From contig NZ_JH711481.1 in NCBI RefSeq assembly GCF_000269805.1, forward strand, positions 1 through 33,677: a stretch of DNA of 33,677 nucleotides, given 5' to 3'. The position numbers and the translations under genes were made by a program. Positions 2,519-30,611 of this stretch are shown piece after piece. Numbering within the stretch: position 1 is the first letter of the stretch; each line of letters opens with the position of its first letter. This DNA is from Actinomyces massiliensis 4401292. GTDB lineage: Bacteria > Actinomycetota > Actinomycetes > Actinomycetales > Actinomycetaceae. The notes beneath the pieces are model-generated. The model was not told the origin of the DNA and made no database searches. It saw only the letters and a list, made by a program, of their open reading frames with translations.

Positions 2519-3280
2519 TCAGACAATCTCGCGGGTGATCTCCTCGATGCCGTCGGCCAGCTCGCCGAGGAAACCGGCATCAGCGTCCAGGGGAAAGAAG
2601 TGTCCTCCGGGCAATACCTTCATCGCGAACCGTCCGCTGGTGAACCTGGACCACCGGGACAGCATGCCGGGGGTGACGGTGGGGTCCTGCTCCCCGGCGA
2701 ACGCCAGTATCGGGCAGGAGAGGACGGTCGAGGCGTGCCGGAAGTCCTCGTGCAGCACGTAGTCGCGCTGAATCCCCGTGAGCAGGAGGTTCATGATGTC
2801 GTCGTCCGCGAGGATCTCCGGAGGCGTGCCGCCGACGGCCTCCAGCTCCTCGCGCAGAGCATCCAGACCCATCGACGACCGGTACTCCCCCTCGATCGTC
2901 TCACCGGGGGCCTGCCGGGCGGCGATCACCACCGCCTCGGGAGGAGTCCGGTGGATCTCCTGCAGGCAGGCGGCCGTCTGGTAGGCGAGGGCCGCACCCA
3001 TCGAGTGGCCGTAGAGGGCGAAGGGCGCACCGGCCGCCAGCTGGAGAATCTCCCCGGCGAACTGCCGGCAGAGCTGGGAGAAGTCCGCTACCCAGCGCTC
3101 CCGCATTCGGGTAGCCTTGCCCGGCAGTTCCACCGGAATCGCATTGACCCGAGGGGCGGCGCCGACCCAGCCCCGGTAGGCGGAGGCATTGCCGCCCGCG
3201 TGGTGGAAGCAGAAGACGAGTAGCCCCCCGCCCCGTTCCGCCACGAACGGGAAGGCGCCCCTCCTCACCATGACCGTCAT
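2519..3280 (-). CDS. Type II thioesterase (YbtT/PchC-like)
   Basis: A 253-residue alpha/beta hydrolase of the external NRPS editing thioesterase family, which frees mis-primed carrier proteins in the cytoplasm. It shows the N-terminal FCFHHAGGNAS oxyanion segment, the nucleophile elbow GHSMG with Ser at residue 93, an Asp in GEQDPTV, and a C-terminal His in GGHFFPLD, completing a Ser-Asp-His triad. The ATG at 3280 overlaps the glycosyltransferase stop codon as ATGA, so translation is coupled. A later in-frame ATG at 3271 is possible. It is the last gene of the unit starting near 9.2 kb, and its natural clients are NRPS1 and NRPS2 in this window. It is not the product-releasing TE, which is fused to NRPS2. 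Confidence 0.93.
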   Translation of the reverse strand: MTVMVRRGAFPFVAERGGGLLVFCFHHAGGNASAYRGWVGAAPRVNAIPVELPGKATRMRERWVADFSQLCRQFAGEILQLAAGAPFALYGHSMGAALAYQTAACLQEIHRTPPEAVVIAARQAPGETIEGEYRSSMGLDALREELEAVGGTPPEILADDDIMNLLLTGIQRDYVLHEDFRHASTVLSCPILAFAGEQDPTVTPGMLSRWSRFTSGRFAMKVLPGGHFFPLDADAGFLGELADGIEEITREIV

Positions 3281-4518
3281 CTCGTGTCCTCTCGCTTGCA
3301 GGAGGCCGCCGGGGTTCCGCCGAGTCCGACCATCAGCTCGACCGCCGCATCGAGCCCCGGGTCGGCCGACAACAGTTGCGGCATGGTGCGCGCGGCCTGG
3401 TCGTACCCGCCGCTGACGAGGTCGGCGACCCCGGCTCCCAGGGCCCGCCTGGTGAGCTCACCGCGCTGGGCGTCGATGTAGGCGGGACCGGCACCGTTTC
3501 TGCGCACCGCCTGCGCATGGAACTGCTGGTCGCCGCCAAAGGCCACCGTCAGACACGGCAGCCCTGCGCGCAGGGCCGCGCCCGTCGTGCCGAGCGACCC
3601 GTGGCACAGCACCGCCCGGCACCGGGGCAGCACCACGGTGAACGGAACCCGGTCAACGGTGAGGAGCCCATCGCTTTCACCAGCCCCTTGATCGGGGTCC
3701 ACAATGATCGCGCGCAAGCCCTGTTCGACCAGGACTTCCCGCGTCCACCTCCACAGATCCCGCAAGCGGTCGGAGGCGACGCTTCCGAAACTGACCAGCA
3801 GTGGCGCTTCGCCTCGCTGCAGGAAGTCCTCGACGTCCTCGCGGAGCGGGGGCGCCGGATCCGGGCTGAGCCACTCGCCGGTGACATGGACATGCGGACC
3901 CCAGGCAGGGTCCGGCGGGTTGAGGCCGGGGCTGAACTGATAAATGGTCTGCGGTGACCCGCGTAAGACCCCGCGTCCCAGACCGAGACGACGTCGCCAG
4001 GTCTTCATCACCGGCCCCATTGCCCAGGTCATCATGGCGTTGGACAGACGGTGTATGAGGACCGCACGCCGAGTTCCGTCGAGGTTGCGAGGATCCACCA
4101 AGCTGTATGACCGGCACGGTTCAGTCGGATAAACCTGCACGCGCACGCTCGGCACGCCCCGGGAGGCGCCCAGAAGGCGCGCGACCTCACCGAACTGGTT
4201 GTGCATGACGACGTCGACCCCGGCCATGGCGCCCTCCAGCGCCTCGAAGATAGCCGGGTCGCCCAGCATCTGCCGCACACCCCGCACGGCGTCCAGCATG
4301 CCCTCTGAGTCCCCCAGCAGGCGCTTCATCATCTCCTGGCAGTCGCCGGGAAGACTGACGTACTCGACCCCCTGGATCTGCCGACCCGCGATGGTCTCGG
4401 CGAACTCGTCGAAGCCGGCGATCACCGTCTCATGGCCACGGGCACCGAGCGCCCCGCCGAGGTGGACGAATGGCAGCAGGTCGCCCTGCGAGCCCATGAC
4501 GACAGCCAGAACCCTCAT
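3277..4518 (-). CDS. GT1-family (GT-B fold) glycosyltransferase
   Basis: A 413-residue nucleotide-sugar glycosyltransferase resembling macrolide, sterol and IroB-type GT1 enzymes. The N-terminal MRVLAVVMGSQGDLLPFVHLG is the usual acceptor-domain start. The C-terminal donor site has CHGSLGTTGAALRAGLP at about residues 303-319, followed by the DQ pair in GGDQQFHAQAV near 330. The usual HHGG of this motif is CHGS here, an atypical variant. The start at 4518 is chosen because the longer frame adds a non-homologous Arg/Pro-rich extension antisense to the acetyltransferase gene. It lies 10 bp after the acetyltransferase gene and overlaps the thioesterase start. Position in the operon suggests it glycosylates the siderophore or an intermediate. 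The acceptor is inferred. Confidence 0.85.
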   Translation of the reverse strand: MRVLAVVMGSQGDLLPFVHLGGALGARGHETVIAGFDEFAETIAGRQIQGVEYVSLPGDCQEMMKRLLGDSEGMLDAVRGVRQMLGDPAIFEALEGAMAGVDVVMHNQFGEVARLLGASRGVPSVRVQVYPTEPCRSYSLVDPRNLDGTRRAVLIHRLSNAMMTWAMGPVMKTWRRRLGLGRGVLRGSPQTIYQFSPGLNPPDPAWGPHVHVTGEWLSPDPAPPLREDVEDFLQRGEAPLLVSFGSVASDRLRDLWRWTREVLVEQGLRAIIVDPDQGAGESDGLLTVDRVPFTVVLPRCRAVLCHGSLGTTGAALRAGLPCLTVAFGGDQQFHAQAVRRNGAGPAYIDAQRGELTRRALGAGVADLVSGGYDQAARTMPQLLSADPGLDAAVELMVGLGGTPAASCKREDTR

Positions 4519-4528
4519 GGTCGCCCGA

Positions 4529-5155
4529 TCACCACTGCCCAGTCGGCCACTCCGGGGTATAAGGCTCATCCAGGAGACGGTCCTCTGGGCCGATCTCGCG
4601 GACGACTCGGCAGGGGTTGCCCGCGGCCAAGACCATCGGGGGAACGTCCTTGGTGACAACACTGCCGGCACCGATGACAGCTCCGTGACCGATGGTCACC
4701 CCGGCCAAGACCACGCAGTGTCCGCCGATCCACACGTCGTGCTCGACGGCGATGGCCCCGCCCGTGCAGAACATGTTCTTGCGCTCATCAGGATCCAGGG
4801 CGTGGTTTCCCGCGAAGAAGGAGGAGTTCGGCCCCACCATGACATTGTTGCCGAAGGAAACCGGCGACATGTCGAGGATAGTGGTGTTGCGGTTGAAGGT
4901 GACGTCGTCGCCCACGGTGATGTTGGTTCCGTACTGGACGTTCAGGGGCAGGAAGACCATCATCCGCTCGCCCATCGAGCCGAGCAGATCTTGCAGGGCC
5001 GCACGCTTCTCGTCGTACTGGGTGGGACGCAGCTGGTTCATGGCGTGGCACTTCTCCGCACCGGCCATCATGTCCTCGTACAGGGACAGGTCATCGATGA
5101 CCCTGAAGGGCTGCCCGGTCCGGATCTTCTCTTCGATCTGCTCACGCGTATCCAT
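4529..5155 (-). CDS. Maltose/galactoside-type hexapeptide O-acetyltransferase
   Basis: A 208-residue left-handed beta-helix acyltransferase of the LacA/Maa/NodL group, normally trimeric and acetyl-CoA dependent. An N-terminal helical cap (residues 1-60: EKIRTGQPFRVIDDLSLYEDMMAGAEKC) is followed by hexapeptide repeats. The catalytic His is in AGNHALDP near residue 118, and IGHGAVIGAGSVVTKDVPPMVLAAGNPCRVVREI is the classical C-terminal repeat block. AAGGAG precedes the ATG by a few bases. It sits between the isochorismate synthase and glycosyltransferase genes, so it may acetylate the sugar added by the latter. Known members acetylate sugars or sugar-bearing lipids; the substrate here is inferred. 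Confidence 0.88.
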   Translation of the reverse strand: MDTREQIEEKIRTGQPFRVIDDLSLYEDMMAGAEKCHAMNQLRPTQYDEKRAALQDLLGSMGERMMVFLPLNVQYGTNITVGDDVTFNRNTTILDMSPVSFGNNVMVGPNSSFFAGNHALDPDERKNMFCTGGAIAVEHDVWIGGHCVVLAGVTIGHGAVIGAGSVVTKDVPPMVLAAGNPCRVVREIGPEDRLLDEPYTPEWPTGQW

Positions 5156-5169
5156 GATCGCTCCTTGTC

Positions 5170-5196
5170 GATGGGGTCGGTGGGGTCAATGGGGTC
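5170..5196. repeat. 9-bp tandem repeat, 3 copies, over a stop codon
   Basis: The units GATGGGGTC, GGTGGGGTC and AATGGGGTC follow with a 9-bp period. They straddle the stop codon of the isochorismate synthase gene (5186-5188), so the last codons and the spacer before the acetyltransferase ribosome binding site are built from the repeat. Confidence 0.75.
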
Positions 5197-6427
5197 GGCG
5201 GGATGCCGCCGGGGTGGGTCGCCCGACGGCATTCGCCGTTGGAGGGTCCGGGATCTGAAGGCCAATGACTGGGGGATCGACGAGCTCTCCGAGTGCCGAG
5301 GTGAAGGTCATCATCTTCGTCGCGGTCTCGCGCAACTCCGAAGCGGGATCGGAGGCGGCCACGATGCCGGCCCCCGCGAACATGGTCGCCCGGTCGGCGT
5401 GCAGCACTCCGGCGCGCAGCACCAGGGCCCACTCGCAGTCCCCATTCACATCCATCCAACCGATCAATCCCGCGAACAGGCCCCTGTCGAAGCCTTCGCA
5501 GCGGGCGATGAAGTCGCGCGCCGGAGTACTGGGCCAGCCGCACACGGCGGGCGTGGGATGCAGGTCGTACAGCAGTTCCAAAGGCGAGCGCCCCTCGCGC
5601 AGGACGCCCTCGATCGGGGTGCCCAGGTGCCACACGACAGGCGTGGCGACCAGCTGCGGACCCGACGGCATCTCGATGTCATCCACATGGCGGCCGAGCG
5701 CCTCCACGACGGCCCGGGAGACGTGTGCGTGCTCGGCGAGGTCCTTGCCGGAGGAGAGCAGGGCCCGGGCGGCCCGGATGTCGGAGGCGGGATCGGTCCC
5801 CCTGGCGATGGTCCCGGCGAGCGGGAGAGTCCATATGCGGGAATCACTGCAGGACAGGACGAGCTCGGGACTCGCCCCCAGCAGGATCCCCGGCTCGTCG
5901 AACAGGCCGCCCATTCCCCCGTCCAGGTCGAGACGGAACACGTAGGCGTCGGGGTTGCTCGCCCTCAGCCGCGCGAGCACATCCTCCGGCCGCCAGACCT
6001 CCGAGGCATGCGAGACCTCCACAGTCGCGCACCGACCCAGGACCACCTTGTCCATGGCCCCGGATCGGATGGCCGTGACGGCCTTCCGAACGATCCGGCG
6101 ATAACCGTCGGGATCAGGGGACTGCCCGATGACGTCGAGCCGGCCGGTCGGGGCGACGACGGCTCCCGGGCTCGGAGCCTGCTCCACGACGACCCGCACC
6201 GGCCGGTACAGAACCCCGGGGCGGCGCGCGTCGAAGGGAATGGCCCCGACGACCATCGCCGGCGCCTCCTCGTGCCCCTCGATCGAGGCGCGCATGGCCT
6301 CGTCGGCGGCCCTGGCAACCTCCTGACCCGTCCAGGCGCGGGGGACGACGGCGGCGGCGACTCCGGTCGCAACCACACTCCGCTGCCCGGTCACGAATTC
6401 GAATCGCGGCTCAGACGCTATTGACAC
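5186..6427 (-). CDS. Isochorismate synthase, EntC/DhbC/PchA type
   Basis: A 413-residue chorismate-utilising enzyme predicted to convert chorismate to isochorismate, the precursor of salicylate or 2,3-dihydroxybenzoate. It matches EntC as I recall that sequence: MVVGAIPFD, MDKVVLGR (general-base Lys near residue 128), GASPELVLS, LPLAGTIARG, LLSSGKDLAEHAHV, TPVVWHLGTP, LHPTPAVCGWP and LFAGLIGWMD...GDCEW. The LHPTPAxxGxP block favours a monofunctional isochorismate synthase over the bifunctional MbtI/Irp9/YbtS salicylate synthases. The start is GTG at 6427, directly after an in-frame TGA, with almost no Shine-Dalgarno; the EPRFEF segment requires a start this far upstream. The last 25 or so residues are a Pro/Arg-rich tail beyond the fold. 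No PchB-like lyase was found. Confidence 0.88.
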   Translation of the reverse strand: MSIASEPRFEFVTGQRSVVATGVAAAVVPRAWTGQEVARAADEAMRASIEGHEEAPAMVVGAIPFDARRPGVLYRPVRVVVEQAPSPGAVVAPTGRLDVIGQSPDPDGYRRIVRKAVTAIRSGAMDKVVLGRCATVEVSHASEVWRPEDVLARLRASNPDAYVFRLDLDGGMGGLFDEPGILLGASPELVLSCSDSRIWTLPLAGTIARGTDPASDIRAARALLSSGKDLAEHAHVSRAVVEALGRHVDDIEMPSGPQLVATPVVWHLGTPIEGVLREGRSPLELLYDLHPTPAVCGWPSTPARDFIARCEGFDRGLFAGLIGWMDVNGDCEWALVLRAGVLHADRATMFAGAGIVAASDPASELRETATKMMTFTSALGELVDPPVIGLQIPDPPTANAVGRPTPAASRRPH

Positions 6428-6439
6428 TCAGACACTCGC

Positions 6440-6466: not shown

Positions 6467-6487
6467 TATTAAGCAACCAGAGAAGGA

Positions 6488-7270
6488 CTACCGGCGCGAT
6501 CCAACGGTCTTGCGGGCCAGAATCACCAGGCTGAAGATGATCAGCCCCGCGAACCAGCCCACGAACAGGACGATATCCCCGGCGACCACCCGGTCGTTGA
6601 TCAGCCCGTCCGACAGCTCGGTCACCGCGGTCAACGGGGACACATCGACGATGGGCCGCAGCACCTCCGCGTACATGTCGCGCGGCATCATCGCGGTGCT
6701 GAAGAACATGGCCGCCATGACCAGGGGCGCGAAGCTCACCGCGCCCTGGGGGGTGTCCACCACGAATCCGAGCATGACGCCCACGGCTCCAGCGGCCACG
6801 GACACCACGGCCAGTACCACGAGAGTTCCCACCAGACCGGTGGCCGTGCGGAAGTCGGCGCCGTAGACCAATCCGATGACGACAGCCGCGATCATCGAGA
6901 CGAACGCGGTCACGGACTCGGCGAGGATTCGTCCGATCATGCCGGTGGACTGGTTGCCGGGGAGCGTCGCCAGCCTGTCGGGCAGACCGTCGTGGCGCTC
7001 CTGGACGATGTTCCCCGCCCCCATGAGAGCGGCCGTGAACGCCTGAGAGACCGCGACCATCACGCACACCGCGGTCATGTTCATCGGTGCGCCACTGAAT
7101 TGCTCCACCATTCCGGAGAACATGACGTTGAGGATAACCAGCATCACGACCGGCATCACCAAGGTGGACAGGACCGAGGGCGGCGAGCGCAGCCACCGCC
7201 TCAGCAGACGCCCGGCATGCACCCCGACCGCGCGCGACCAACCGATGCGCAGGGCCTCCCGATTGCTCAT
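6488..7270 (-). CDS. ABC-2 type transporter permease (exporter subunit 2)
   Basis: A 260-residue integral membrane protein of the ABC-2/DrrB group, with about six hydrophobic segments, including VLSTLVMPVVMLVILNVMF near the N terminus, VSMIAAVVIGLVYG and LVVLAVVSVAAGAVGVMLGF in the middle, and IVLFVGWFAGLIIFSLVIL at the end. The cytoplasmic QERHDGLPDRLATLP segment matches the coupling region of ABC-2 permeases. The start at 7270 has GGAGG upstream and overlaps the preceding permease stop as ATGA. With the second permease and the DrrA-like ATPase it should form a heteromeric exporter. Given the operon, export of the finished siderophore is the natural role, by inference. Confidence 0.88.
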   Translation of the reverse strand: MSNREALRIGWSRAVGVHAGRLLRRWLRSPPSVLSTLVMPVVMLVILNVMFSGMVEQFSGAPMNMTAVCVMVAVSQAFTAALMGAGNIVQERHDGLPDRLATLPGNQSTGMIGRILAESVTAFVSMIAAVVIGLVYGADFRTATGLVGTLVVLAVVSVAAGAVGVMLGFVVDTPQGAVSFAPLVMAAMFFSTAMMPRDMYAEVLRPIVDVSPLTAVTELSDGLINDRVVAGDIVLFVGWFAGLIIFSLVILARKTVGSRR

Positions 7271-8055
7271 GCTTGCCTCCTGAATGCTCCGGATACCCAC
7301 CAGACGCCGAGTATCAGTCCGATCGCCAGCCAGGCCAGCGCCTCCCAGCCCTCATCACCCGGGGTGAGGCCGCTAAGAAGGGCACGGTTCGTATCAATCA
7401 TCACCGAGAACGGCATGTGCCTGATAATCGGCTCCAGCCAGTCGGGCAGGGCGGCGATGGGGATGAATGCAGTGGACAGCATCAGCAGCGGCATCTCGAC
7501 GCCCTGGATCAGACCGGCCGTCTGAACGGGATGATGAGATCTCAGTGCCAGCCCGCAGAAGGCGAGCACCAGGACCTGCCCCATCAGCAGCGCGGTGAGG
7601 CATGACAGCAGAAGACCACCGACGCTGTCGGGTTTCGCGCCGCAGATAAGACCGATGACCACGATCGCCCCCACCGACAGCAACGCGCGCAGCAGGTCGG
7701 TGATCATTCGTCCGCCCACGGCCACCATGGCCCGGATGGGCATGGCCCGCAGACGGGCGAGTAGTCCGCTCTCCATGTCCACGGCCAGCGCCATTGACGA
7801 GCCGCCGGCGGTGAACATCACCGCCTGGAACATCGAGGCCGCCGTCAGGAACAACGCGTAGTCGAATCCCGACGCGCTGGCCGCATGCCCGAACACGATC
7901 CAGAAGGCGAGCATCGACATCCCGGGAATCACCAGTGCGGACACCAGGGAGGCGCTGTTGCGGCGAAGACGGAGGTTGTTGCGCTGCACGGCCCCCGCAA
8001 GGGCACGCGCGCTCGACGGTCTCCTGTCGGTGACCCGCTGCGCGAAGACCGTCAT
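7267..8055 (-). CDS. ABC-2 type transporter permease (exporter subunit 1)
   Basis: A 262-residue DrrB-like membrane protein with about six transmembrane segments (LVSALVIPGMSMLAFWIVFG, LFLTAASMFQAVMF, SVGAIVVIGLICG, LLSCLTALLMGQVLVLAFCGLA and others). The MESGLLARLRAMPI segment is the conserved cytoplasmic coupling motif of ABC-2 permeases. The start overlaps the ATPase stop as ATGA (8055/8052) and the stop overlaps the next permease start (7267-7270). All three exporter subunits are therefore translationally coupled, consistent with one complex. Confidence 0.88.
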   Translation of the reverse strand: MTVFAQRVTDRRPSSARALAGAVQRNNLRLRRNSASLVSALVIPGMSMLAFWIVFGHAASASGFDYALFLTAASMFQAVMFTAGGSSMALAVDMESGLLARLRAMPIRAMVAVGGRMITDLLRALLSVGAIVVIGLICGAKPDSVGGLLLSCLTALLMGQVLVLAFCGLALRSHHPVQTAGLIQGVEMPLLMLSTAFIPIAALPDWLEPIIRHMPFSVMIDTNRALLSGLTPGDEGWEALAWLAIGLILGVWWVSGAFRRQA

Positions 8056-9092
8056 GATCCGTTCTCCTCAGCCGACTCGACAGAGCCGGCGGAGTCGGCA
8101 GAGCCGGCATCGGATGCGAAGGCCGTACCGAGGAACACGTCATCCAGGGATGGCGGGGTCAGGGAGACCGAGACGACCTCAAGACCCGCGGAGGTGATCG
8201 CCCGGGTGGCCGAGACGAGGTCCTCTGTGCCGCCATGAGCGACGAATGAGACCTCCAGCGCGTCGACCGTGAAATCGTCATGCGGGTGGCCGAGCGCCCC
8301 GGGGAGAACGCTCTCGGCGACTCGCCGGGCCAGCGTCGCGTCGTCAAGCGCGATCCTGCAGATCGGCGCGCCGAACCGGCGTCGCAGCTCGGAGGGAGAT
8401 CCCTGCGAGACCTTGCGGCCCTCGCGCAGGACGACGATGTCGTCGGACAGGCGCTCCGCCTCATCAAGGTACTGCGTCGTGAGCAGGATGGCAACGCCCT
8501 GGCCCCGCAGCTCCTCGACCATCTCCCACAACTCCCGGCGCGACAGCGGGTCGAGGCCCGTCGTGGGCTCATCGAGGAACAGCAGCTGCGGTTCGACGAT
8601 CAGCGAGGCCGCGATGTCGAGCCGCCGCCTCATGCCCCCGGAGTACTTGGCCGCGCGCTGGTCGCCCGCATCCGCGAGCCGGAACCTGTCCAGCAGCTCA
8701 TCCGCGCGCTCGGCGGCAGCGGCCCGCCCGAAGCCGTTGAGGCGCGCGAAGAAGACGAGGTTCTCCTTGCCGGTCAGCTCCCCGTCAACGGCGGCGAACT
8801 GACCGGTCAGGGAGATGTGCCGGCGCACTTGTCTGGGCTGGGACACGACATCCGCACCGCACACGGTGATCGTCCCCGAGGTGGGCTTCATCAGTGTGGA
8901 GGCGATATTCACCAACGTCGTCTTGCCGGCGCCATTGGCTCCCAGCAGCGAGACCACCTGAGCGGGGCGGACGTCGAAGCTGAGGCCCTTGAGCACTTCC
9001 TTGGCCTTGGTGCCTTTGCCGAAGGTCTTGCAGAGATCGCGCACGCGCAGCGCGACTTCATTCGATGAGGGGATTGCGTCGGGGTCGGACAT
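8052..9092 (-). CDS. DrrA-like ABC exporter ATP-binding protein
   Basis: A 346-residue ATPase of the daunorubicin-resistance (DrrA) subfamily. It shows Walker A GANGAGKTT, the signature SGGMRRRLDIA, Walker B LLFLDEPTTGLDP with the catalytic Glu, the switch region ILLTTQYLDEAE, and the DrrA-type C-terminal domain ending in PSLDDVFLGTAF. A repetitive tail (DAGSADSAGSVESAEENGS) comes from a 9-bp repeat at 8074-8109. The start at 9092 is chosen because GGAAGGA lies just upstream and the following residues lead directly into the nucleotide-binding domain. An iron-box-like site lies about 100 bp upstream, making this the first gene of a second iron-regulated unit. Siderophore export is inferred from context. 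Confidence 0.92.
   Translation of the reverse strand: MSDPDAIPSSNEVALRVRDLCKTFGKGTKAKEVLKGLSFDVRPAQVVSLLGANGAGKTTLVNIASTLMKPTSGTITVCGADVVSQPRQVRRHISLTGQFAAVDGELTGKENLVFFARLNGFGRAAAAERADELLDRFRLADAGDQRAAKYSGGMRRRLDIAASLIVEPQLLFLDEPTTGLDPLSRRELWEMVEELRGQGVAILLTTQYLDEAERLSDDIVVLREGRKVSQGSPSELRRRFGAPICRIALDDATLARRVAESVLPGALGHPHDDFTVDALEVSFVAHGGTEDLVSATRAITSAGLEVVSVSLTPPSLDDVFLGTAFASDAGSADSAGSVESAEENGS
8074..8109. repeat. In-frame 9-bp tandem repeat, 4 copies
   Basis: GACTCGACA, GAGCCGGCG, GAGTCGGCA and GAGCCGGCA form a degenerate 9-bp array at the 3' end of the exporter ATPase gene. It encodes the Ala/Ser/Gly-rich C-terminal tail, outside the conserved domain, so copy number could vary without loss of frame. 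Confidence 0.65.
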
Positions 9093-9184: not shown

Positions 9185-9213
9185 AATATCTTAGCTTAGA
9201 CTTACCTGGGCAA
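9185..9213 (-). promoter_or_regulatory. Iron-box (DtxR/IdeR-like) promoter of the exporter operon
   Basis: TTAGCTTAGACTTACCTGG at 9191-9209 matches the DtxR/IdeR consensus TTAGGTTAGGCTAACCTAA at 14 of 19 positions by my count. On the minus strand it lies between a -35-like TTGCCC (9208-9213) and a -10-like GATATT (9185-9190) with a 17-bp spacer, so a bound repressor would block the promoter. It is about 100 bp upstream of the exporter ATPase ATG and overlaps the 3' end of the ECF ATPase gene. The match is visible in the sequence; iron-dependent repression is inferred from the family consensus. Confidence 0.7.
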
Positions 9214-22393: not shown

Positions 22394-22398
22394 GATGA

Positions 22399-25300
22399 TC
22401 ACTCCCCCCGCTCGAAGGCAGGCAGCAGGGAGCGGAAGTTCTCCTCGAGCAGGCAGGTGGCGTGGGATCCGGAGATGGTGCGCACCTCCAGCTCGCCCAA
22501 CGCTGTGGCGGGCCAATCGACGTCCCCGCCCAACTGCGGGTAGAAGCCCTGGATATCCCCGGCGGGCTGGAGCACGAGCACCTCGCCCATGTAGATGTCG
22601 GGCACGTAGCCGATGGTTCCCCGCAGCGAGTGGCGGAAGACGTCGTAGAGGATGTCGAGCATCGCGCGGGCCGACTCCGCCTCGGCGTCGAAGCCGCGGA
22701 TCGCCGAGTAGATCCTCTTGCGCCGGGCGCGCGGCGACAGCTCCGACAGCGTCGTGAAGAACCTGCCCACCGCTGCGAACCGGCCGTCGAGGGCGCACAG
22801 CTCGTCGTCGGTGATGTCCCGGTTGACCCCGTCGAGAATGTGGTACAGGCCCTCGGTGAGGGTCGGGAAGTCGAACTCGGCCCCCATCGCGGGCAGGTCG
22901 GCGTCGAAGACGCAGCCGTAGGCGAACTCGCACAGCAGCTCGTTCGCCACGCGGTGCGGGCACAGGTGGGTACTGATGCACACCACCCTGCCGACCTCGC
23001 GGCCGAGCTCGGTGAGCACCTTCGCGGTCTCGAGGGCGAAGAACCCGCCGATGCAGTAACCGACCAGCTCGTAGCTGTCCATGTCGAGGGCGAGCAGCTC
23101 CTGGGCGTACACCCGGGCCCGGTCGCTGATCAGTGACCGGGTCGGGCAGTCGAGGTAGTCGTCGGAGTCGCCGGCGGTGAACCCGACGTGGGCGAGCCCC
23201 GGATCCCTGTCGAGCAGCTCCGGGACCAGGAACTCGTAGTCCTTGAGGCGCCCGGTGCCGGCGTGGAACATGACCCGGCAGGATCGCGCCCCCTGCGGAA
23301 TCCGGTAGATGTGCAGGCATTTCGAACCATTCGGGGAACCGCTCGCGATGGTGGACAGGGCCGGCATCGGGGCGGGGGCCTCAGGAGCCTCGACACGGTC
23401 GGGCGTATCCGCAGGGGCCTCACGAGCCTCGTCATCCCGGGGCGCCGGGGCGCCGGAGCCCGCCATCTCGGCGATTCCAGCGATCGTGGGATGCTTGAGC
23501 ATCTCGCGCATGATGAAGTCCCAGGTCCGATCCTGCAGGCCGGGCACCTCCCGGCGCATACGGGTGACCGCCTCGGCCATCAGCAGCGAGTCGCCGCCGG
23601 CGGCGTAGAAGTCCTCCTCGCGACCGATCTCGGAGACCTCGAGAACCTCTCTCCAAACCTCCGCGATCCGGCTCTCCAGACCTTTGAGCGGCTGAGCGGC
23701 CCTCGGGTCCTCGACGGCGCCCCCGGACTCGTAGGACTGGGCGAGAGCCCTGCGGTCGACTTTCCCGTTCGCGCTCAGCGGCAGCTCATCCATGATCCGC
23801 ACCGATGCGGGAACCATGTAGCCCGGCAGGTTGGCCCGCATATGGGCGAGCAGGTCGTCCTCATCGACCGTGGAGGCAGCAGGGACAGTAACGGCAACGG
23901 AACCAGCAGGGCCGGCTGAGTCGGCGGGGTCGGCGGGGTCGCCGACGACGATCAGGCGCTGACCGCACTCACGCAGAGGATCCCCTTCAGCCGGGTAGTC
24001 GGCCAACCGGCGCAGGCCGGTCGCCTCGTACACACGGTCCCACTCAGCGTCGTCGATGAACACCTTGTGCGAATCGGCGCGGTGATCGGTGAACGGAACC
24101 AGGCTCATCTTGATCGAGATGGAGATGAGGGCCGCGTAGAGCTCGATGACCGGCTCGACCATCACGATCACACCGCCTCCGCGCCGCAGCTGATCGAGCC
24201 GGGCGAAGGCCTCCTCGATGTTCACCGCATTGTGCAGCACATTGGCGCAGATGATGACGTCATAGGCGCCCGGCTCGATGTCCTGGGAGGCGCAGTCCAC
24301 GTTCACGTCGAACAGGCTGTAGGTCATGAAGTCCGCGAGATCGCGGTCCCGATAGGTCTGCCTGGCATTGCGCAGGAAGAAGGTCGAGATGTCGGTGAAC
24401 CGGTACTCGATCACGTTGCCCGGCAGACGCCCGACGATGTTCTCCGTGGTCGCGCCGATACCCGCGCCCACCTCGAGGATCCGCACCGGACGGTCCCCGC
24501 GGGATGAGACGATCCCCACCACAGCCTCGGCGACCGCGGCGTTGATCGCCTTGCTGATCCTGTTCTGCCCATAGATGGCACGGGCGTTCTCGGTGTCGCC
24601 CTTGGGGAAGAACAGATCGACGGGGTTGACCTCGCCGCGCAGTTGGCCCAGCAGGGTCGTCGCCGCATGTCGCTGGTAGGCGAAGAGCACGGGGCTGTTG
24701 CGGACTCGGTTCTCCAGCTCTTCGAACCTGTCCCAGCACTTCTCGATGCGGAACCCGTCCAGAGCCTCCCGGGTAATGGAATAGCCCTGCGAGTCGGAGG
24801 CGACGAGCCCCTCGGCGACCAGGATCTGCAGCCAGCGCCCCACGAGGCCGCGGTACTCGTCGTCGGGGGCGATCCTCTCGGTGATCTCCGCCAGGTCATG
24901 GCGCCTGCCGGGCACCAGGAACACCCCGGCCCCCTGGAATGCCGCCAGCAGCGCAGCCAAGGATGCCTCATTGCCGGCGCGCGTCCACTCGGCGATGGTC
25001 GCTGAATCTGCTGAATCTGCTGGGTCTGCCGGGTCAGCCGGGTCAGCCGAGGCGTCGGCGGGCGCCCAGCGGCGCTCCAGCATGGCGCGCAGCGACTCCC
25101 CGGCCGGAGCACTCTCGCCCCGCCTCTCGTACTCGCCCCGCCCTTCCTCGCTCCGCCTTTCCCCGCTCTGAGGACCGGCCCCGATCCCCTCGACCGTGGA
25201 CGGGGTCACGAAGGCGCGCAGCCTCTTGCGCCCATCGACGTCCTGGGTGATGACGACGGCCCGCTCCACGCCCTCATGACTCTCCAGCACGGACTCGATC

Positions 25301-28089
25301 TCACCGGTCTCGACCCGGTAGCCGTTGATCTTCACCTGGTGGTCCGCGCGTCCGTGGAACTCGATCACGCCGTCAGCGCGGTAGCTGCCGATGTCTCCGG
25401 TGTCATAGACGCGGATGCCGGACCTGTCGGAGACGTAGAACTTGGCAGCGGTGGTCTCCGGGTCGTCGAAGTACCCGGTGGCGAGGCTGTCGCCGGAGAT
25501 GTGGATGCGGCCCGGGACGCCGTCGGGGCATTCGCGGCCGAACTCGTCGAGGACCCACACGCCCTGGTTCGACAGGGCCGTGCCGTAGGGGATGGTCGCA
25601 TCGGGGGCGTGATCGGTCATCGGGTGGAAGATCGACCAGATGCCCGCCTCCGTGGCGCCGCCCAGGCTGATGAGTTCGGCGTTCGGGAACTGCGGTGCGG
25701 CAGCGGCCGGCAGGGTGCGCACGATGAGATCCCCGGACAGCATGACCAGGTCCATGCCGGGGTCGGGCGGCTGCCCGGCCGCCTCGCGCTCCTGCAGGAG
25801 CATCTGGAACAGCGCAGGGACGGTGTTCCAGGTGTCGACGCGGTTGTCCGCCATCAGGGCGATCCAGCGGCTCGGGTCCCTGGACTCCGATTCGAGCGGC
25901 AGGACGAGGGTGCCGCCGCTGGCGAAGGCGCCGAAGATGTCGTAGACCGACAGGTCGAAGGACAGCTTCGACAGTGCGAGCACCGTGCGGGGCCTACCGC
26001 GCCCGAGGCGCTCGTTGACGTCGTCGATGGTGTTCATGGCCGCCGCATGGGTCATGACCACGCCCTTGGGCGTCCCGGTGCTTCCCGAGGTGAAGATGAT
26101 GTAGGCGGTGTCGTCCACGGGACCGGATTCCGGCACCGCCCCGCTCCAGGATCCCGCCTCCAGGGCGTCCACGTCGATAACCGCGGGGTGCCCCTGGGAC
26201 GGGGTGTAGAGGCCGTCGGCGATGATCGCCGCGGGACGGCACAGCGAGATCATGCGATGCTGCCGGGCAGGGGGCTGATCGTGGTCGATCGGCACGTAGG
26301 CGGCGCCCGCGGAGACCACGGCGAGGGCGGCGGCGACCTGCCACACGCCCTTGCCCAGGACGATGGCGACCCGATCTCCGCGGCCGACACCCGACAACCG
26401 GGTCTGAAGCGCCTCGACGTGGGCCGCCAGCCGGTCGTAGCTGTAGGTGGTGTCCCCCCAGACGAGCGCCGGGAGCTCGGGGGCGCGCCGCGCCTGCTCC
26501 CAGAAACCGTCCTGGAGACTGCGGGCGATGCGCTCCTGCGCGGTGTCGTGGACGCGCGCGCGTATCTCCCGAGTCCCGGAGCTCAGGCTCACCACCTCGT
26601 CCTGGTGCCAGGTCTCCTCGTCGTCGACGAGGCGGTCGAGCAGGCCGGTGAACGCCGCCCACATGTCGTCGAGGATCTCAGGAGCGATGACGCCGTCGCG
26701 CACGTCCCAGTTGACGTTGCAGGTCGCGTCGTCCTCGAAGGCCTGGCAGTCGATCCACACCTGCGGGGTTCGACTGACGCCGTGGACCAGCTCGTACGCC
26801 TGTCCCTCATCATGGCGCAGACCGGCGCCCAGGGCGCTGGTGAACACGATCGGAACGATGGCCGGCGCGCCCTTGGCGCGCCCCAGCTCCCGCAGCACCT
26901 CGACCCCGGGGAAGGCGGCGTGGGACAGCTCGTCGAACAGCTGCTTCTGGGTGGCGCGGACCCGCTCGAGGAAGGATCCCGGCCGGGGGCGGCAGGCATG
27001 GACGACCACCTCGGTGAAGTCGCCCACGATCCGCTCAACCCCCTTGATGGCCTGGTCGCGGCTCATCGAGGTGACATTCACGCAGAAGTCGCCGCTCGAG
27101 GACCACCGGCGGATGACATCGGCATAGGCGGTCAGCAGCACATTGGACGGGGTGACGCCGTTCCTGCCGGCACGGCGGGTAAAGGCTTCCCAGGCCTCGG
27201 GTCCGCATTTCCACACGCGTCTGGTGAAGCGCGCCGGTTCGTCGTCGCTCGGAGCCGACGCATGCTCGAGCGGCAGCGAGGGCTTGTCCCGCATCGTCTC
27301 GATCGCCTCGGCCCAGTACTGCTTGGCGCTCTCGTACTCCGCGGAGCCGGCGGGGTCGGCCGCCCGTCGGGTGCGCGCCATGATGATGTCGCGGAAGGTC
27401 GCCTCGGCCAGGGGCGCCGGCCGCCGCCCCGCGTAGAGGTCCATCAGCTCCTGGGTCATCACCTTCACGCTCACGAAGTCCGCGATGATCATGTCCACGG
27501 AGAACTGCAGAATGCTGCACGCATCGAACTGCAGCAGCCGGAATTCGTGCAGCGGCCAGGCGCCCAGCGGGTACCTGCGATCCTCCAGCTCGCTGCGGTA
27601 CCGCAGGTAGTCCTCATCGGGGGTGCGCGGATCGTGGCCCCGCAGGTCGATCTCCTCCAGCACCGGCCCCTCCTCGAAGGGGACGACGCGCAGGGAGTCC
27701 GGAGGGATCACCACGGCCGAGAGCATGTCGTGACGGCGGATCAGCTCGTGCCAGGCGGCCTCCAAGCGCTCGCGGTCCAGCGGCGGAGCGAGCAGTTCCG
27801 CATAGCTGTGGCAGCCCGTACCGCCCAGTTCGTAGCCGGAGTACTGGCCGGTCGCGTAGGCCCGCTGGATGTCGGTCATCGGGAAGGGCTCGAAGCGCGC
27901 CTGCTCGTCGTGGCCGATGGCGTCCCGCTCGCGCAGGTGGGCCAGGACCTCCTCCTTGCGCGCCTTGAGCGCGGCCAGGTCCTCCCGCGTCAGGACTCCC
28001 TTCGGCGAGCGGTAGCCGAGCCGGTCGCCATTGGCCCACAGGGCAACTCCCCGGGACTGGAACTCCTCGATCATCTCCGCGATGTCCAC
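22399..28089 (-). CDS. NRPS2: docking-Cy-A-MT-PCP-TE
   Basis: A 1896-residue terminal synthetase with PchF-like order. Residues 1-60 resemble a TubC-type docking domain (IEEFQSRGVALWANGDRLGY). Cyclisation domain: about 67-510, DMIIADFVS fits DxxxxDxxS. Adenylation: about 525-1450, with FTSGSTGTPKG, FDLSVYD, WNTVP and ATEAGIWS, again a cysteine-type code. Embedded methyltransferase: about 1100-1400, with an intact SAM loop LEVGAGIGATTENIV near 1205, so probably active. PCP: GGDSL near 1498. Thioesterase: about 1580-1896, whose nucleophile elbow is GYCIGG (Cys near 1680) instead of GxSxG, with AGD and SGSHAT supplying Asp and His. Start GTG 6 bp behind a very strong AGGAGGT. It acts after NRPS1 although its gene comes first. 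The product is released as acid, cycle or ester; which is unknown. Confidence 0.95.
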   Translation of the reverse strand: MDIAEMIEEFQSRGVALWANGDRLGYRSPKGVLTREDLAALKARKEEVLAHLRERDAIGHDEQARFEPFPMTDIQRAYATGQYSGYELGGTGCHSYAELLAPPLDRERLEAAWHELIRRHDMLSAVVIPPDSLRVVPFEEGPVLEEIDLRGHDPRTPDEDYLRYRSELEDRRYPLGAWPLHEFRLLQFDACSILQFSVDMIIADFVSVKVMTQELMDLYAGRRPAPLAEATFRDIIMARTRRAADPAGSAEYESAKQYWAEAIETMRDKPSLPLEHASAPSDDEPARFTRRVWKCGPEAWEAFTRRAGRNGVTPSNVLLTAYADVIRRWSSSGDFCVNVTSMSRDQAIKGVERIVGDFTEVVVHACRPRPGSFLERVRATQKQLFDELSHAAFPGVEVLRELGRAKGAPAIVPIVFTSALGAGLRHDEGQAYELVHGVSRTPQVWIDCQAFEDDATCNVNWDVRDGVIAPEILDDMWAAFTGLLDRLVDDEETWHQDEVVSLSSGTREIRARVHDTAQERIARSLQDGFWEQARRAPELPALVWGDTTYSYDRLAAHVEALQTRLSGVGRGDRVAIVLGKGVWQVAAALAVVSAGAAYVPIDHDQPPARQHRMISLCRPAAIIADGLYTPSQGHPAVIDVDALEAGSWSGAVPESGPVDDTAYIIFTSGSTGTPKGVVMTHAAAMNTIDDVNERLGRGRPRTVLALSKLSFDLSVYDIFGAFASGGTLVLPLESESRDPSRWIALMADNRVDTWNTVPALFQMLLQEREAAGQPPDPGMDLVMLSGDLIVRTLPAAAAPQFPNAELISLGGATEAGIWSIFHPMTDHAPDATIPYGTALSNQGVWVLDEFGRECPDGVPGRIHISGDSLATGYFDDPETTAAKFYVSDRSGIRVYDTGDIGSYRADGVIEFHGRADHQVKINGYRVETGEIESVLESHEGVERAVVITQDVDGRKRLRAFVTPSTVEGIGAGPQSGERRSEEGRGEYERRGESAPAGESLRAMLERRWAPADASADPADPADPADSADSATIAEWTRAGNEASLAALLAAFQGAGVFLVPGRRHDLAEITERIAPDDEYRGLVGRWLQILVAEGLVASDSQGYSITREALDGFRIEKCWDRFEELENRVRNSPVLFAYQRHAATTLLGQLRGEVNPVDLFFPKGDTENARAIYGQNRISKAINAAVAEAVVGIVSSRGDRPVRILEVGAGIGATTENIVGRLPGNVIEYRFTDISTFFLRNARQTYRDRDLADFMTYSLFDVNVDCASQDIEPGAYDVIICANVLHNAVNIEEAFARLDQLRRGGGVIVMVEPVIELYAALISISIKMSLVPFTDHRADSHKVFIDDAEWDRVYEATGLRRLADYPAEGDPLRECGQRLIVVGDPADPADSAGPAGSVAVTVPAASTVDEDDLLAHMRANLPGYMVPASVRIMDELPLSANGKVDRRALAQSYESGGAVEDPRAAQPLKGLESRIAEVWREVLEVSEIGREEDFYAAGGDSLLMAEAVTRMRREVPGLQDRTWDFIMREMLKHPTIAGIAEMAGSGAPAPRDDEAREAPADTPDRVEAPEAPAPMPALSTIASGSPNGSKCLHIYRIPQGARSCRVMFHAGTGRLKDYEFLVPELLDRDPGLAHVGFTAGDSDDYLDCPTRSLISDRARVYAQELLALDMDSYELVGYCIGGFFALETAKVLTELGREVGRVVCISTHLCPHRVANELLCEFAYGCVFDADLPAMGAEFDFPTLTEGLYHILDGVNRDITDDELCALDGRFAAVGRFFTTLSELSPRARRKRIYSAIRGFDAEAESARAMLDILYDVFRHSLRGTIGYVPDIYMGEVLVLQPAGDIQGFYPQLGGDVDWPATALGELEVRTISGSHATCLLEENFRSLLPAFERGE
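23914..23940. repeat. In-frame 9-bp repeat, 3 copies, in NRPS2
   Basis: GGCTGAGTC, GGCGGGGTC and GGCGGGGTC encode the DPADPADSAG linker between the methyltransferase insert and the final part of the adenylation domain. Confidence 0.7.
25001..25045. repeat. In-frame 9-bp repeat, 5 copies, in NRPS2
   Basis: GCTGAATCT (two copies), GCTGGGTCT and GCCGGGTCA (two copies) encode the ADPADPADSADSA run in the linker entering the methyltransferase insert. It is degenerate between but perfect within neighbouring pairs, as expected from stepwise slippage. Confidence 0.85.
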
Positions 28090-28160: not shown

Positions 28161-29240
28161 TCACCGATGCAGGTGGGCGGCAAGCCGGGTGAGCTGCGCC
28201 AGGTCGAGATGGGTGGACGACAACTCGGCTCCGAAGGCCCGCGAGGGGCCGATGAGCTGTCCGACGCGTGTCCAGATCGAGCACAGGGCGAGCAGGTACT
28301 CGGCCTCGTGCGCCCGATAGCCGGGGTCGTTGAGCTCGTCATAGATGACGTCGAGGCATTCGGCGATCGCGACCGGCCAGATGCGCTCGTACTGGATCCG
28401 CCTGGTCACCTCGGGCTCGACGGCGAGGCTCTCGTGCAGCCGGAACGAGCTGAGGCTCTCGTCGGCGTCGACCTCGAGGACGCCCGCCTCATCCCGGGGT
28501 CCGGCGGCGTTCGGGTGCCAGATGATCGGCCCGTCGCTCTCGGTGAGCACCAAGTTCCCGCCGGGGGTGAACACAGTGATCCTGTGACCGAGGTGCACGA
28601 AGTCGTCGGGGGCCTCGGGGTTCATCCTGTTGACCACCTGCAGACGCAACGGGGTGTTCCTCACCAACCCGGTGACCGTGGTGAACACCCCCAGATCCTC
28701 AGCGCGGTCATTGAGGTGCCACGGGGTGAAGCCACCGGTGATCCTCCCGATCACGTCGAGCATCGAGTACAGGAAGTGGATGCTGCACTCGGCCTCCAGG
28801 TGGAGGATTCCATAGCGCTCGCGCAGCACATCGACCATCCGCAGGTACTGCTTGATCGTGGAGCTGTGGCGGTAGAAGGTGTTGAGCCAGAAGCTCGTGC
28901 GGGCACGTGCCGCCTCGCGGTAGCAGGCGACGGCGTCATCGCGGTGGATCGGGTGCTCCATGAGGACGTGCTTGCCGGCGGCGAGCAGCTGTTGGGCGAT
29001 CTGCGACCCCGCCCCGCCTATGATCCCCGAGCGGACCACGACGCAGGCCAGGTCGACCTTCGGCAGCTCATCGATGCTGGTGCACAGAGGAACGCCGACC
29101 TCCGCCGCGAACCGCCTCGACTGCGCACTGCCCCTGGACATCATGGCGACCAGCTCGTACTTGTCCGGGAGCGCGCGGACGCCGGCGGCATAGATGCGGC
29201 CGAATGTCGTGCCGCACACGACGACTCGCAGGGTATCCAT
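28161..29240 (-). CDS. Thiazolinyl imine reductase (PchG/Irp3/YbtU family)
   Basis: A 359-residue Gfo/Idh/MocA-fold NADPH-dependent oxidoreductase predicted to reduce a carrier-bound thiazoline to a thiazolidine. The Rossmann motif VVVCGTTFGRIYAAGV at residues 6-21 has the form seen in this siderophore branch. LLAAGKHVLMEHPIHRDD near 85-103 is the family hallmark cofactor/substrate segment, and SIHFLYSMLDVIGRITGGFTPW lies in the substrate domain. AGGAAGG precedes the ATG by nine bases. It is the second gene of the operon, immediately before NRPS2, whose intact methyltransferase could N-methylate the ring this enzyme reduces, as in pyochelin. Ring choice among three is inferred. Confidence 0.92.
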   Translation of the reverse strand: MDTLRVVVCGTTFGRIYAAGVRALPDKYELVAMMSRGSAQSRRFAAEVGVPLCTSIDELPKVDLACVVVRSGIIGGAGSQIAQQLLAAGKHVLMEHPIHRDDAVACYREAARARTSFWLNTFYRHSSTIKQYLRMVDVLRERYGILHLEAECSIHFLYSMLDVIGRITGGFTPWHLNDRAEDLGVFTTVTGLVRNTPLRLQVVNRMNPEAPDDFVHLGHRITVFTPGGNLVLTESDGPIIWHPNAAGPRDEAGVLEVDADESLSSFRLHESLAVEPEVTRRIQYERIWPVAIAECLDVIYDELNDPGYRAHEAEYLLALCSIWTRVGQLIGPSRAFGAELSSTHLDLAQLTRLAAHLHR

Positions 29241-29312
29241 GGGATGTGGCCTTCCTAGGGTGGTGGCGCACAGCCGAGACGCCGACGACGCCGACTGCAG
29301 CCACCCAGGGGG

Positions 29313-29342
29313 AGTAGGGATTGGTTGGGATTAGTAGGGATT
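29313..29342. repeat. 10-bp tandem repeat, 3 copies
   Basis: AGTAGGGATT, GGTTGGGATT and AGTAGGGATT lie in the 122-bp gap between the saccharopine-dehydrogenase-like gene and the reductase gene. The outer copies are identical. No promoter or terminator is obvious in the gap. Confidence 0.75.
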
Positions 29343-29362
29343 GAGCATCCGGGGACGCCGGA

Positions 29363-30472
29363 TCATATGAAGCCCGAGTCGTCCTCCTCGGCCCAGTCGG
29401 AAATGGCCGAGACACTGGTGGGCGGCGTCTCGCGCACCTCGATGCCGCTCATACCCAGGGCGTCCAGGACCGCGGGGACTCGGAGGAACTCATGCCCCCA
29501 CTGGACCCCGGGGGCGCACCCGGCCTCCAGTGCCAGGAGCACGGCCTGGACGATCAGGATCGCGGTCAGGATGCTGCTGTTGTCGGCCCGGACGCTGATC
29601 GAAGTCCTCACGGGCCTGCCGTCGACGGTTCCACGAGCGGCGACCTGCAGGATGAACCAGTGGTCCCTGCCGGAGTCGAGGTGCGACTTCGCGGCGTCGA
29701 TCTCGGCGAACAGCTGCATGAGCTCCTGGTGGTCGTCGAGGTCGCCGTGGGTCATCGCCTTCAGCAGCAGATGCAGGGAGTCGCGGTCGGGGATGACCAG
29801 CAGCCCGTTGAGCCGCCGGATCCGGCAGTCGCGTGCGACCATCCGCAGCTCGTCGGTGACGAAGACCGAGCGCAGCACCTCGGCGTCGTCGGGAAAGGCG
29901 TCGGTGTCCTCGGCCTCCCACCGGCTCGCCTCGTGATCCGCCAGTTCGCCGTCGATGATCATCCGGTTCGGGTGCCCGTAACCGGCCCGGGTGCTGAGGA
30001 TGATGTCGGCGAACCCCGCGACGCCGCCCTTCTCGCGGCCGCCGCAGCACACCATGACCGATTCGCAGTCGTCGAGGAGCCCGGCCAGGTGACGCGTCAG
30101 CAAGCCGCTGAGCCCGGGCGTGCAACCGACGTTGATGATGCGCGCCTGCTGGCCCGCATCGCCGTCGAAGGCGTTGCCCCCGAACGGGTCGACGTAGATC
30201 ACCCCGGCCGGCAGCGCGGCGGCCACCGCATCCCCGATGAGGTAAGAAGGGCCGGCGCAGTTCACGACGACCTCGTGACCCTGGGCGAACTCGCGGATGG
30301 TCTCGGGGCGACGAGCATCGATGATGGCGGTCCGCTCCTCGGGGCTTCGCCTGGTTCTGTTGCCGCACGCGACCTCGCAGCCGGCCTGGCGCAGGAGCTC
30401 GACCACGAGGCCACCGACCGCGCCGTGCGAGCCGATCACGCCGATCCGTCGGCCACTGACTGCGTCATGCAA
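29363..30472 (-). CDS. Saccharopine-dehydrogenase-like NAD(P) oxidoreductase
   Basis: A 369-residue protein starting with a Rossmann fold, RRIGVIGSHGAVGGLVVELLRQAGCEV, followed by GNRTRR, VVNCAGPSYLIGDAVAAA and the VGCTPGLSGLLTRHLAG segment typical of saccharopine dehydrogenase-like reductases. The remainder has no clear motif. The start is taken as TTG at 30472 because GAGGAG lies 5 bp upstream; the nearby ATG at 30468 is in another frame. It is the first gene of the large biosynthetic unit, behind the iron box at 30574-30592. I recall a second, non-PchG class of thiazoline reductase (PchK of enantio-pyochelin) but could not verify its family, so a role as a second ring reductase is a hypothesis. 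Other reductive tailoring is possible. Confidence 0.82.
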   Translation of the reverse strand: MHDAVSGRRIGVIGSHGAVGGLVVELLRQAGCEVACGNRTRRSPEERTAIIDARRPETIREFAQGHEVVVNCAGPSYLIGDAVAAALPAGVIYVDPFGGNAFDGDAGQQARIINVGCTPGLSGLLTRHLAGLLDDCESVMVCCGGREKGGVAGFADIILSTRAGYGHPNRMIIDGELADHEASRWEAEDTDAFPDDAEVLRSVFVTDELRMVARDCRIRRLNGLLVIPDRDSLHLLLKAMTHGDLDDHQELMQLFAEIDAAKSHLDSGRDHWFILQVAARGTVDGRPVRTSISVRADNSSILTAILIVQAVLLALEAGCAPGVQWGHEFLRVPAVLDALGMSGIEVRETPPTSVSAISDWAEEDDSGFI

Positions 30473-30573
30473 AGCAACTCCTCAACGACGGCACGGCACC
30501 CGAGCAACGATCCGAAGGCGCACCATGAGAGAGCCCCTCATGCGCCCGCCTCGAGATCAGAGGCAACCCTTAG

Positions 30574-30611
30574 CTAGGCTCAACTTACCTAAGTGATTTT
30601 CGGGCGGTCAA
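30574..30611 (-). promoter_or_regulatory. Iron-box (DtxR/IdeR-like) promoter of the biosynthetic operon
   Basis: On the minus strand TTAGGTAAGTTGAGCCTAG (30574-30592) matches the consensus TTAGGTTAGGCTAACCTAA at 13 of 19 positions by my count, keeping TTAGGT and CCTA of the two half-sites. A TTGACC -35 element is at 30606-30611 with an 18-bp spacer to a -10-like TAAGTT at 30582-30587 inside the box, so repressor binding would cover the -10. The start codon is about 100 bp downstream. Iron-regulated expression is inferred from the match and from the gene content. Confidence 0.7.

Follow-up and report, generated by a model that had tools for sequence, protein, structure and literature searches.

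The window analysed here is the whole stretch of 33,677 nucleotides (positions 1 to 33,677 of contig NZ_JH711481.1) from Actinomyces massiliensis 4401292, whose genome of 3.37 Mb is assembled in 13 contigs. From about 2.5 to 30.6 kb it carries, on the minus strand, a locus of nonribosomal peptide synthetase (NRPS) genes together with genes for aryl activation, ring reduction, transport and decoration, which run from 30472 to 2519 and show a strong third-position GC bias. It is a real siderophore locus, complete by gene content and with signs of iron control. In it an assembly line of the coelibactin/sorangibactin type is combined with energy-coupling factor (ECF) transporter genes of the equibactin type and with an apparently exchanged block for export and decoration. 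The original prediction had placed an aryl-capped tris-cysteine siderophore locus at 2519..30611, an interval which takes in the whole locus. The comparisons below make use of three other genomes of the same genus (G030, G035 and G039, called the congeners) and of a locus (our L054 and L120-L122) in Propionibacterium sp. oral taxon 192 F0372 (Prop192). The assembly line and its accessory enzymes are as follows (A, adenylation; ArCP, aryl carrier protein; Cy, cyclisation; MT, methyltransferase; PCP, peptidyl carrier protein; TE, thioesterase).

29363..30472, minus strand: saccharopine-dehydrogenase-like reductase (SacDH; PchK/SrbE/MchE type); PF03435 24.1 bits, narrowly missing the cut-off of 25.1
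28161..29240, minus strand: thiazolinyl imide reductase (TIR; Irp3/PchG/SrbI type); TIGR01761 252.0, cut-off of 188.8 passed
22399..28089, minus strand: NRPS2, TubC_N-Cy-A(Cys)-MT-PCP-TE, with the Cys nucleophile in GYCIGG; from domain searches and motifs
21785..22390, minus strand: VOC/Glyoxalase_3 protein, SrbJ/MchJ-like by family; PF13468 61.9 bits
20151..21773, minus strand: aryl-AMP ligase with Asp at the site of DhbE Asn235 (HDLPLAQPG); TIGR02275 434.8 bits, equivalog cut-off of 723.55 not reached
12203..20140, minus strand: NRPS1, ArCP-Cy-A(Cys)-(MT-like)-PCP-Cy-A(Cys)-PCP; from domain searches and A codes
15941..17053, minus strand: stretch of NRPS1 with the embedded MT-like domain, without GxGxG (EVGARR)
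2519..3280, minus strand: stand-alone type II thioesterase (TEII; editing); PF00975 134.4 bits, 59-65% in the congeners and Prop192

By Pfam, NRPS1 contains two Condensation, two AMP-binding and three PP-binding stretches, and NRPS2 contains TubC_N, one Condensation, one AMP-binding, a methyltransferase, one PP-binding and a Thioesterase domain. The Cy motifs are DLLVCDVQS, DNLFIDGWS and DMIIADFVS. A loose form of the motif recurs elsewhere in both NRPS proteins; an assignment by motif counting alone was rejected for that reason, and the Cy assignment therefore rests on homology to the solved NRPSs with Cy domains, BmdB, HMWP2, EpoB and PchE. Together with the Pfam result this confirms the two NRPS genes with three Cy domains that the original prediction had seen. 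The three A domains, claimed to be specific for cysteine, have the codes DLYNLSMI, DLYNLSSI and DLYNMSLI, each a single substitution from a published code for cysteine (DLYNMSMI in HMWP2, DLYNLSLI in BacA; Table 1 of PMC3672683). Aryl ligase, ArCP and Cy-A(Cys) modules, the combination of pyochelin/yersiniabactin-type systems, are thus all found, as are the predicted reductase (the TIR) and the terminal TE of NRPS2. The claim of a tris-cysteine logic with no polyketide synthase (PKS) module also holds, the cysteines being counted by A code.

Both NRPSs contain a domain of the methyltransferase type. The one in NRPS2 has an intact S-adenosylmethionine motif (ILEVGAGIGATT). The domain embedded in NRPS1 lacks GxGxG and has EVGARR or a similar sequence in 5 of 5 aligned loci (the window, the congeners and Prop192). 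It would fit the epimerase-like domain embedded in pyochelin and yersiniabactin synthetases, the direct match being weak. A PchE-type epimerase was rejected as an assignment, as the isolated stretch hit no PchE chain at E 0.01 and matched only methyltransferases and PKS chains. PchE was matched only by the whole NRPS1 (65.6 bits, query 1243-1532, extending into the PCP), and the domain is for this reason kept as MT-like without GxGxG. The TE nucleophile lies in GYC or GHC in 10 of 12 NRPS2-type proteins and in GHS in the other two (genomes G009 and G013). A plasmid search with NRPS2 gave 2218 matching records, none of them at 60% or more, and 10 had one place covering at least 80%.

With TIGR01761 over its cut-off, the TIR gives the locus a trans-acting thiazoline reductase, and SacDH is a second candidate reductase. 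SacDH is 29-31% identical to proteins of two Streptomyces coelibactin-type loci and of an Azospirillum locus. The annotated order of the latter (AMP-binding protein, NRPS, NRPS, SacDH, alpha/beta hydrolase, isochorismate lyase, isochorismate synthase) resembles the pchDHIEFKCBA operon named in PMC8150894. PFL_3491 is given as "saccharopine dehydrogenase PchK" (PMC3377617), pchK is described as thiazoline-reducing and sven0516 as essential (PMC11626248), and SrbE is indispensable in sorangibactin, with no function assigned to it and with the same domain description as SacDH (PMC10127202). Since this description is also that of the thiazoline-reducing PchK, we propose that SrbE, MchE and the protein encoded at 29363-30472, likened to PchK and SrbE by description, are PchK-type thiazoline reductases. 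This would suggest a role for the essential, unassigned SrbE/MchE protein. With two candidate reductases and an MT domain, the predicted thiazoline-thiazoline-thiazolidine product is one option; two reduced rings and at least one methylation would also fit.

The pocket of the aryl ligase was compared among 18 distinct ligases of at least 250 bits from the loci examined, one duplicate of the window having been dropped. The site of DhbE Asn235 holds Asn in 13 of them and Asp in five, namely the window, the three congeners, which are close relatives, and Prop192. At the 240 site these five have Q, N, N, N and S, the window thus being Asp/Gln at 235/240. The hydroxyls of 2,3-dihydroxybenzoate (DHB) are contacted by Asn235 and Ser240 (PMC10296737), and Ser/Cys at the second site distinguishes DHB from salicylate ligases (PMC12005286). 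Since Asp stands where 13 of 18 ligases have a substrate-contacting Asn, the cap may differ from salicylate and DHB; an Asp would still be compatible with salicylate. The altered pocket offers a single-enzyme route to testing for a new cap. The enzyme likely to feed the ligase with precursor is encoded further down in the locus:

5186..6427, minus strand: isochorismate synthase (ICS; EntC/DhbC type); TIGR00543 242.7, cut-off of 224.75 passed

A salicylate synthase at this place was ruled out (TIGR03494 118.1 against a cut-off of 325.15). The ICS of the locus is the only close isochorismate-synthase-like gene found in the source genome. The congeners have another enzyme elsewhere, 35-39% identical to it, which is probably MenF; its neighbour resembles UbiE/MenG by eye in two of the three. 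On contig C3 of the source genome there are MenD-like and UbiE-like genes (by eye), with no match beside them to the congeners' MenF-like gene, and the MenD match contains two TGA.

Next to NRPS1 lie the genes of an ECF transporter:

11474..12097, minus strand: ECF S component, MptD/Trep_Strep family (EqbH-like); TIGR02185 110.1, cut-off of 76.45 passed
10707..11475, minus strand: ECF T component (EqbI-like), start uncertain within the open reading frame 10707-11546; TIGR02454 27.5 bits, weak, placed between the S and A genes
9202..10710, minus strand: ECF fused double ATPase (EqbJ-like); two ECF/CbiO stretches, 64-65% in the three congeners

An S component of the MptD family, a T component and duplicated A genes thus adjoin the NRPS genes. 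EqbH, EqbI and EqbJ are annotated as S, T and fused A parts (PMC8754150), and deletion of eqbHIJ abolishes the iron import linked to equibactin (PMC3672683). By analogy, the genes at 9202-12097 probably serve to re-import the ferric complex. Tailoring and transport had been predicted to be distinctive; this is supported, except that the uptake genes have a precedent in the ECF arrangement annotated for eqbHIJ. In the congener G035 (contig C78, L018) the fused ATPase match at about 5150 is divided between two frames (query 2-446 and 445-503), which may reflect a frameshift or an error of assembly. In G009 (contig C3) and G013 (contig C6; L125 and L126) an MptD-type S component and a fused ECF ATPase stand between genes which by eye resemble gyrB and recF, and the 20 kb read there contain no NRPS.

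Two candidate operators for a DtxR/IdeR-family repressor stand before the two putative transcription units:

30574..30592, no strand assigned: DtxR/IdeR-like box, 14/19, about 100 nt before the SacDH start
9191..9209, no strand assigned: DtxR/IdeR-like box, 15/19, about 100 nt before DrrA (see below), overlapping the end of the ECF ATPase gene

It should be noted that the 19-position score was devised after the TTAGGTAAG stretch had been seen and is therefore partly post hoc; it was controlled with Markov sequences, in sets of 20 and 300, and by the sites present in relatives. Two sites of at least 14/19 occurred in none of 300 Markov sequences, one site of 14 in 10 of 300. The congeners have sites of 14-15/19 at the matching place before SacDH. 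Prop192 has an 18/19 site before DrrA and another of 15 elsewhere; among the six top-scoring sites listed per congener there is none in front of DrrA. DtxR-family genes are present in all five genomes searched, the source genome having two. The operator-like boxes at the promoters and a regulator in the genome suggest that a DtxR/IdeR-family repressor likely controls the two units. Beside SacDH, at 30764-31189 of the window, there is a short HTH_11/PafC-type regulator in which no effector domain was found and which is possibly truncated.

From these components the following pathway can be proposed. An aryl acid, supplied by way of the isochorismate synthase, would be loaded by the stand-alone ligase onto the carrier at the N terminus of NRPS1, after which three cysteines would be added and cyclised, two by NRPS1 and one by NRPS2. 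The Irp3-type and PchK-type reductases would turn one or two thiazolines into thiazolidines, and the MT domain of NRPS2 would methylate the last ring (pyochelin and sorangibactin, as analogues, make N the probable site) before the chain is released by the TE of NRPS2 with its Cys nucleophile. The glycosyltransferase and acetyltransferase described below probably act on the product or on a precursor, either to decorate or to mask it. A Drr-type exporter would carry the product out, and the S-T-AA ECF transporter would probably bring the ferric complex back in, as in equibactin. At high iron the DtxR/IdeR-family repressor would likely close both transcription units.

We consider it probable that the locus is iron-regulated and serves to make, export and re-import an aryl-capped tris-cysteine siderophore. 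A number of observations weigh against this. The product itself is a prediction from the gene content. The PchK-type link of SacDH is remote (29-31%), and no convincing solved relative of it was found. The ligase pocket departs from the common patterns of both salicylate and DHB ligases; the window has no recognisable isochorismate-pyruvate lyase or DHB gene, and a CM_2-family gene is present as a single copy in each of the five genomes searched (the source genome and four others), so that the step from isochorismate to the cap lacks an assigned enzyme. The solved structures which best match the MT domain of NRPS2 are PKS C-methyltransferases (CurJ, AprA and DisA), which leaves the choice between N- and C-methylation undecided by sequence. 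The profile match of the T component is weak. The scan of genome contigs, which gave at least 593 matching stretches and from which 79 loci were kept, many of them general NRPS loci, showed among the matches listed no MptD match in the flanks of any of these 79. The strict IdeR pattern with up to three mismatches has no site in the window, and the top-scoring boxes of G030 and G039 (16/19), like one of G035 that ties at 15/19, are at other places, close to other transport-like genes.

The predicted kinship to coelibactin- and equibactin-like loci is borne out, and it extends to further systems. The combination of SacDH, two NRPSs and a TE with a Cys nucleophile, seen in coelibactin, sorangibactin and mupirochelin loci, is present, with SacDH narrowly under its Pfam cut-off. 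The sorangibactin locus (srb, Sorangiineae MSr11367; PMC10127202) shares two NRPSs, the aryl ligase, the Irp3-type reductase, SacDH (SrbE), the VOC protein (SrbJ), the Cys-TE and a five-domain last NRPS with MT. It differs in having an Irp9-type salicylate synthase instead of an ICS, and in a P450 and SrbF/G-like methyltransferases, which are not recognised here, whereas the window has the embedded MT-like domain in module 1, the ECF transporter, a glycosyltransferase, an acetyltransferase and a ligase pocket unlike the salicylate pattern. Mupirochelin (mch, Pseudomonas NCIMB 10586; PMC10080011) shares by annotation ICS, ligase, VOC, TIR, SacDH, two NRPSs and TEII; its isochorismate-pyruvate lyase, P450, two methyltransferases and TonB receptors are not recognised in the window. 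The VOC protein is found in sorangibactin and mupirochelin and absent in coelibactin.

The coelibactin-type loci of Streptomyces sp. SAT1 and S. clavifer (L033 and L034) share SacDH, TIR, a TE/hydrolase and the ligase with the window, and their NRPS2 is alignable over 94-95% at 34-36% identity. Unlike the window they have a P450, a methyltransferase, a salicylate synthase and a pair of ABC ATP-binding proteins; their first A domain has FDLATWD against FDLSVYD in the window, and no S or T component match was found in them. Both loci also include a Gfo/Idh/MocA oxidoreductase, and both are plasmid-borne, the two plasmids being linear and measuring 841 and 456 kb. Equibactin (eqb, Streptococcus equi ICESe2; PMC3672683, PMC8754150) shares the S-T-AA ECF set, TEII, a thiazoline reductase and MT and TE domains; unlike the window it uses one A domain for all cysteines, has the DtxR-like EqbA in the locus and the EqbKL transporters, and needs supplied salicylate. 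The locus thus couples a coelibactin-type assembly line with an equibactin-type ECF transporter, and supplies a defined set of genes for a sulfur-rich siderophore in an actinobacterium with a small genome. Beyond the original prediction it has the second reductase, the VOC protein, ECF and Drr transporters, ICS, acetyltransferase, glycosyltransferase and boxes. No description of the locus or of any glycosylated thiazoline siderophore was met in the papers looked at; MIBiG, supplements and most subscription papers lay outside this search.

Downstream of the ECF genes, ICS lies within a block whose other genes are:

8052..9092, minus strand: ABC export ATPase DrrA; TIGR01188 303.0, narrowly under the cut-off of 312.45
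7267..8055, minus strand: ABC-2 export permease DrrC1; TIGR00025/drrC, under cut-offs
6488..7270, minus strand: ABC-2 export permease DrrC2; TIGR00025/drrC, under cut-offs
4529..5155, minus strand: Mac/LbH O-acetyltransferase (AcT); PF12464 and Hexapep, 87% to Prop192
3277..4518, minus strand: GT1/EryCIII-like glycosyltransferase (GT); PF06722 over cut-off, TIGR04516 and Rgt profiles far under theirs

The locus has a mosaic relationship to its relatives. The SacDH anchor is found in 4 of 213 genomes of the family (E 1e-20), all of one genus. The congeners keep the order SacDH, TIR, NRPS2, VOC, ligase, NRPS1, S, T, AA, DrrA, C1, C2, TEII with identities of 52-73% (34-43% over parts for T); these three orthologous loci are without the exporter-ICS-AcT-GT arrangement, and no ICS or AcT match was found in the locus stretches read. 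Prop192 has the same order DrrA-C1-C2-ICS-AcT-GT as the window, with identities of 82% (DrrA), 78% (DrrC1), 80% (DrrC2), 66% (ICS), 87% (AcT; other family matches listed at most 45%) and 71% (GT), and the DrrA promoter and box are alignable between the two. Outside the block the identities are 38% for NRPS1 (about 37% for the NRPSs), 48% for the ligase, 32% for TIR and 27% for VOC, and TEII, with 59-65% to all four relatives, has no Prop192 signal. The congeners are at 71-72% for DrrA, 67-73% for DrrC1 and 54-60% for DrrC2. The window and Prop192 are paired in the trees of DrrA (support 0.94) and DrrC1 (0.81); in the DrrC2 tree the two are separated from the congeners (1.00), and a long outgroup branch falls among them. 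The simplest reading is that the block from about 9.2 to about 3.3 kb was replaced by a Prop192-like version, the exchange being possible in either direction. This would suggest that the genes for supplying the precursor, for decoration and for export can be transferred together from one assembly line to another.

Prop192 resembles the window in its VOC, SacDH-like protein, Asp ligase, three Cys-type A domains and TIR, and differs in the layout of its MT-like domains; no S or T component match was found in the 60 kb read. Its TIR-like protein of 737 aa has a C-terminal methyltransferase-like part, its NRPS2 is short with no SAM motif found, and its NRPS1 has an MT-like stretch in module 2.

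Tentatively, one may go further and suggest a cap that is neither salicylate nor DHB, for example an amino- or N-heteroaryl acid, followed by glycosylation and O-acetylation by a cassette which moves with its own iron-controlled promoter and exporter from one siderophore line of actinobacteria to another; this is possible rather than probable. The competing idea that ICS, AcT and GT are unrelated cargo within the operon, such as a drug-inactivation or cell-envelope cassette, seems to us unlikely. It would agree with the weak match of GT to the rifamycin-inactivating Rgt profile and the matches of AcT to sugar and Vat acetyltransferase profiles, all under cut-offs, and with the lack of ICS and AcT in what was read of the three orthologous loci; it agrees poorly with the block being found also in the second, divergent aryl-tris-Cys locus of Prop192, and with GT being present in 3 of 213 family genomes (E 1e-40), all among the four with the locus, G035 and G039 being close relatives and not independent. 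The GT gene of G039 lies past TEII, at a distance of about 7 kb, and that of G035 at a contig end which shares synteny with this part of G039; none was found in G030 by the same search, and there were no GT relatives in viral contigs.

Drr-type exporters are typical of antibiotic loci, and the presence of one here is among the points which could suggest a zinc or mixed-metal chelator or an antimicrobial, like coelibactin, transvalencin A or mupirochelin, in place of a product that is mainly an iron siderophore. Coelibactin is termed a predicted zincophore (PMC3430247), transvalencin A contains zinc and mupirochelin is termed a weak siderophore (PMC10080011). The DtxR/IdeR-like sites before both putative units and the EqbHIJ-type transporter point instead to iron, and we regard this alternative as quite improbable. 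An ordinary coelibactin/sorangibactin cluster, with Ser/Thr first and a terminal homocysteine thiolactone, is very improbable: SacDH, TIR, Cys-TE and VOC (the last absent in coelibactin) are in common and the first A domain of sorangibactin was predicted to take Cys and took Ser (PMC10127202), a failure of code prediction, but the first A domain here has FDLSVYD with the Cys code DLYNLSMI and no Ser/Thr code, no P450 (every gene in 2519-30472 is assigned to another family) or stand-alone methyltransferase is recognised in the locus, the embedded domain of NRPS1 is absent (by spacing) from the two Streptomyces NRPS1 proteins, and a Cys-TE, present in the enantiopyochelin-type Azospirillum locus too, does not imply a thiolactone.

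Within the genus, G013 (contig C22, L024-L025) and G009 (contig C14, L022-L023) have a second, divergent NRPS locus of thiazoline type; next to the NRPSs of G013 there is an ABC protein pair, accompanied by genes for an MptD-like protein and a fused ECF ATPase (about 41%). At 421-1846 of the window, near the contig edge and probably outside the locus, there are a divergent TetR regulator and a short-chain dehydrogenase (by eye).

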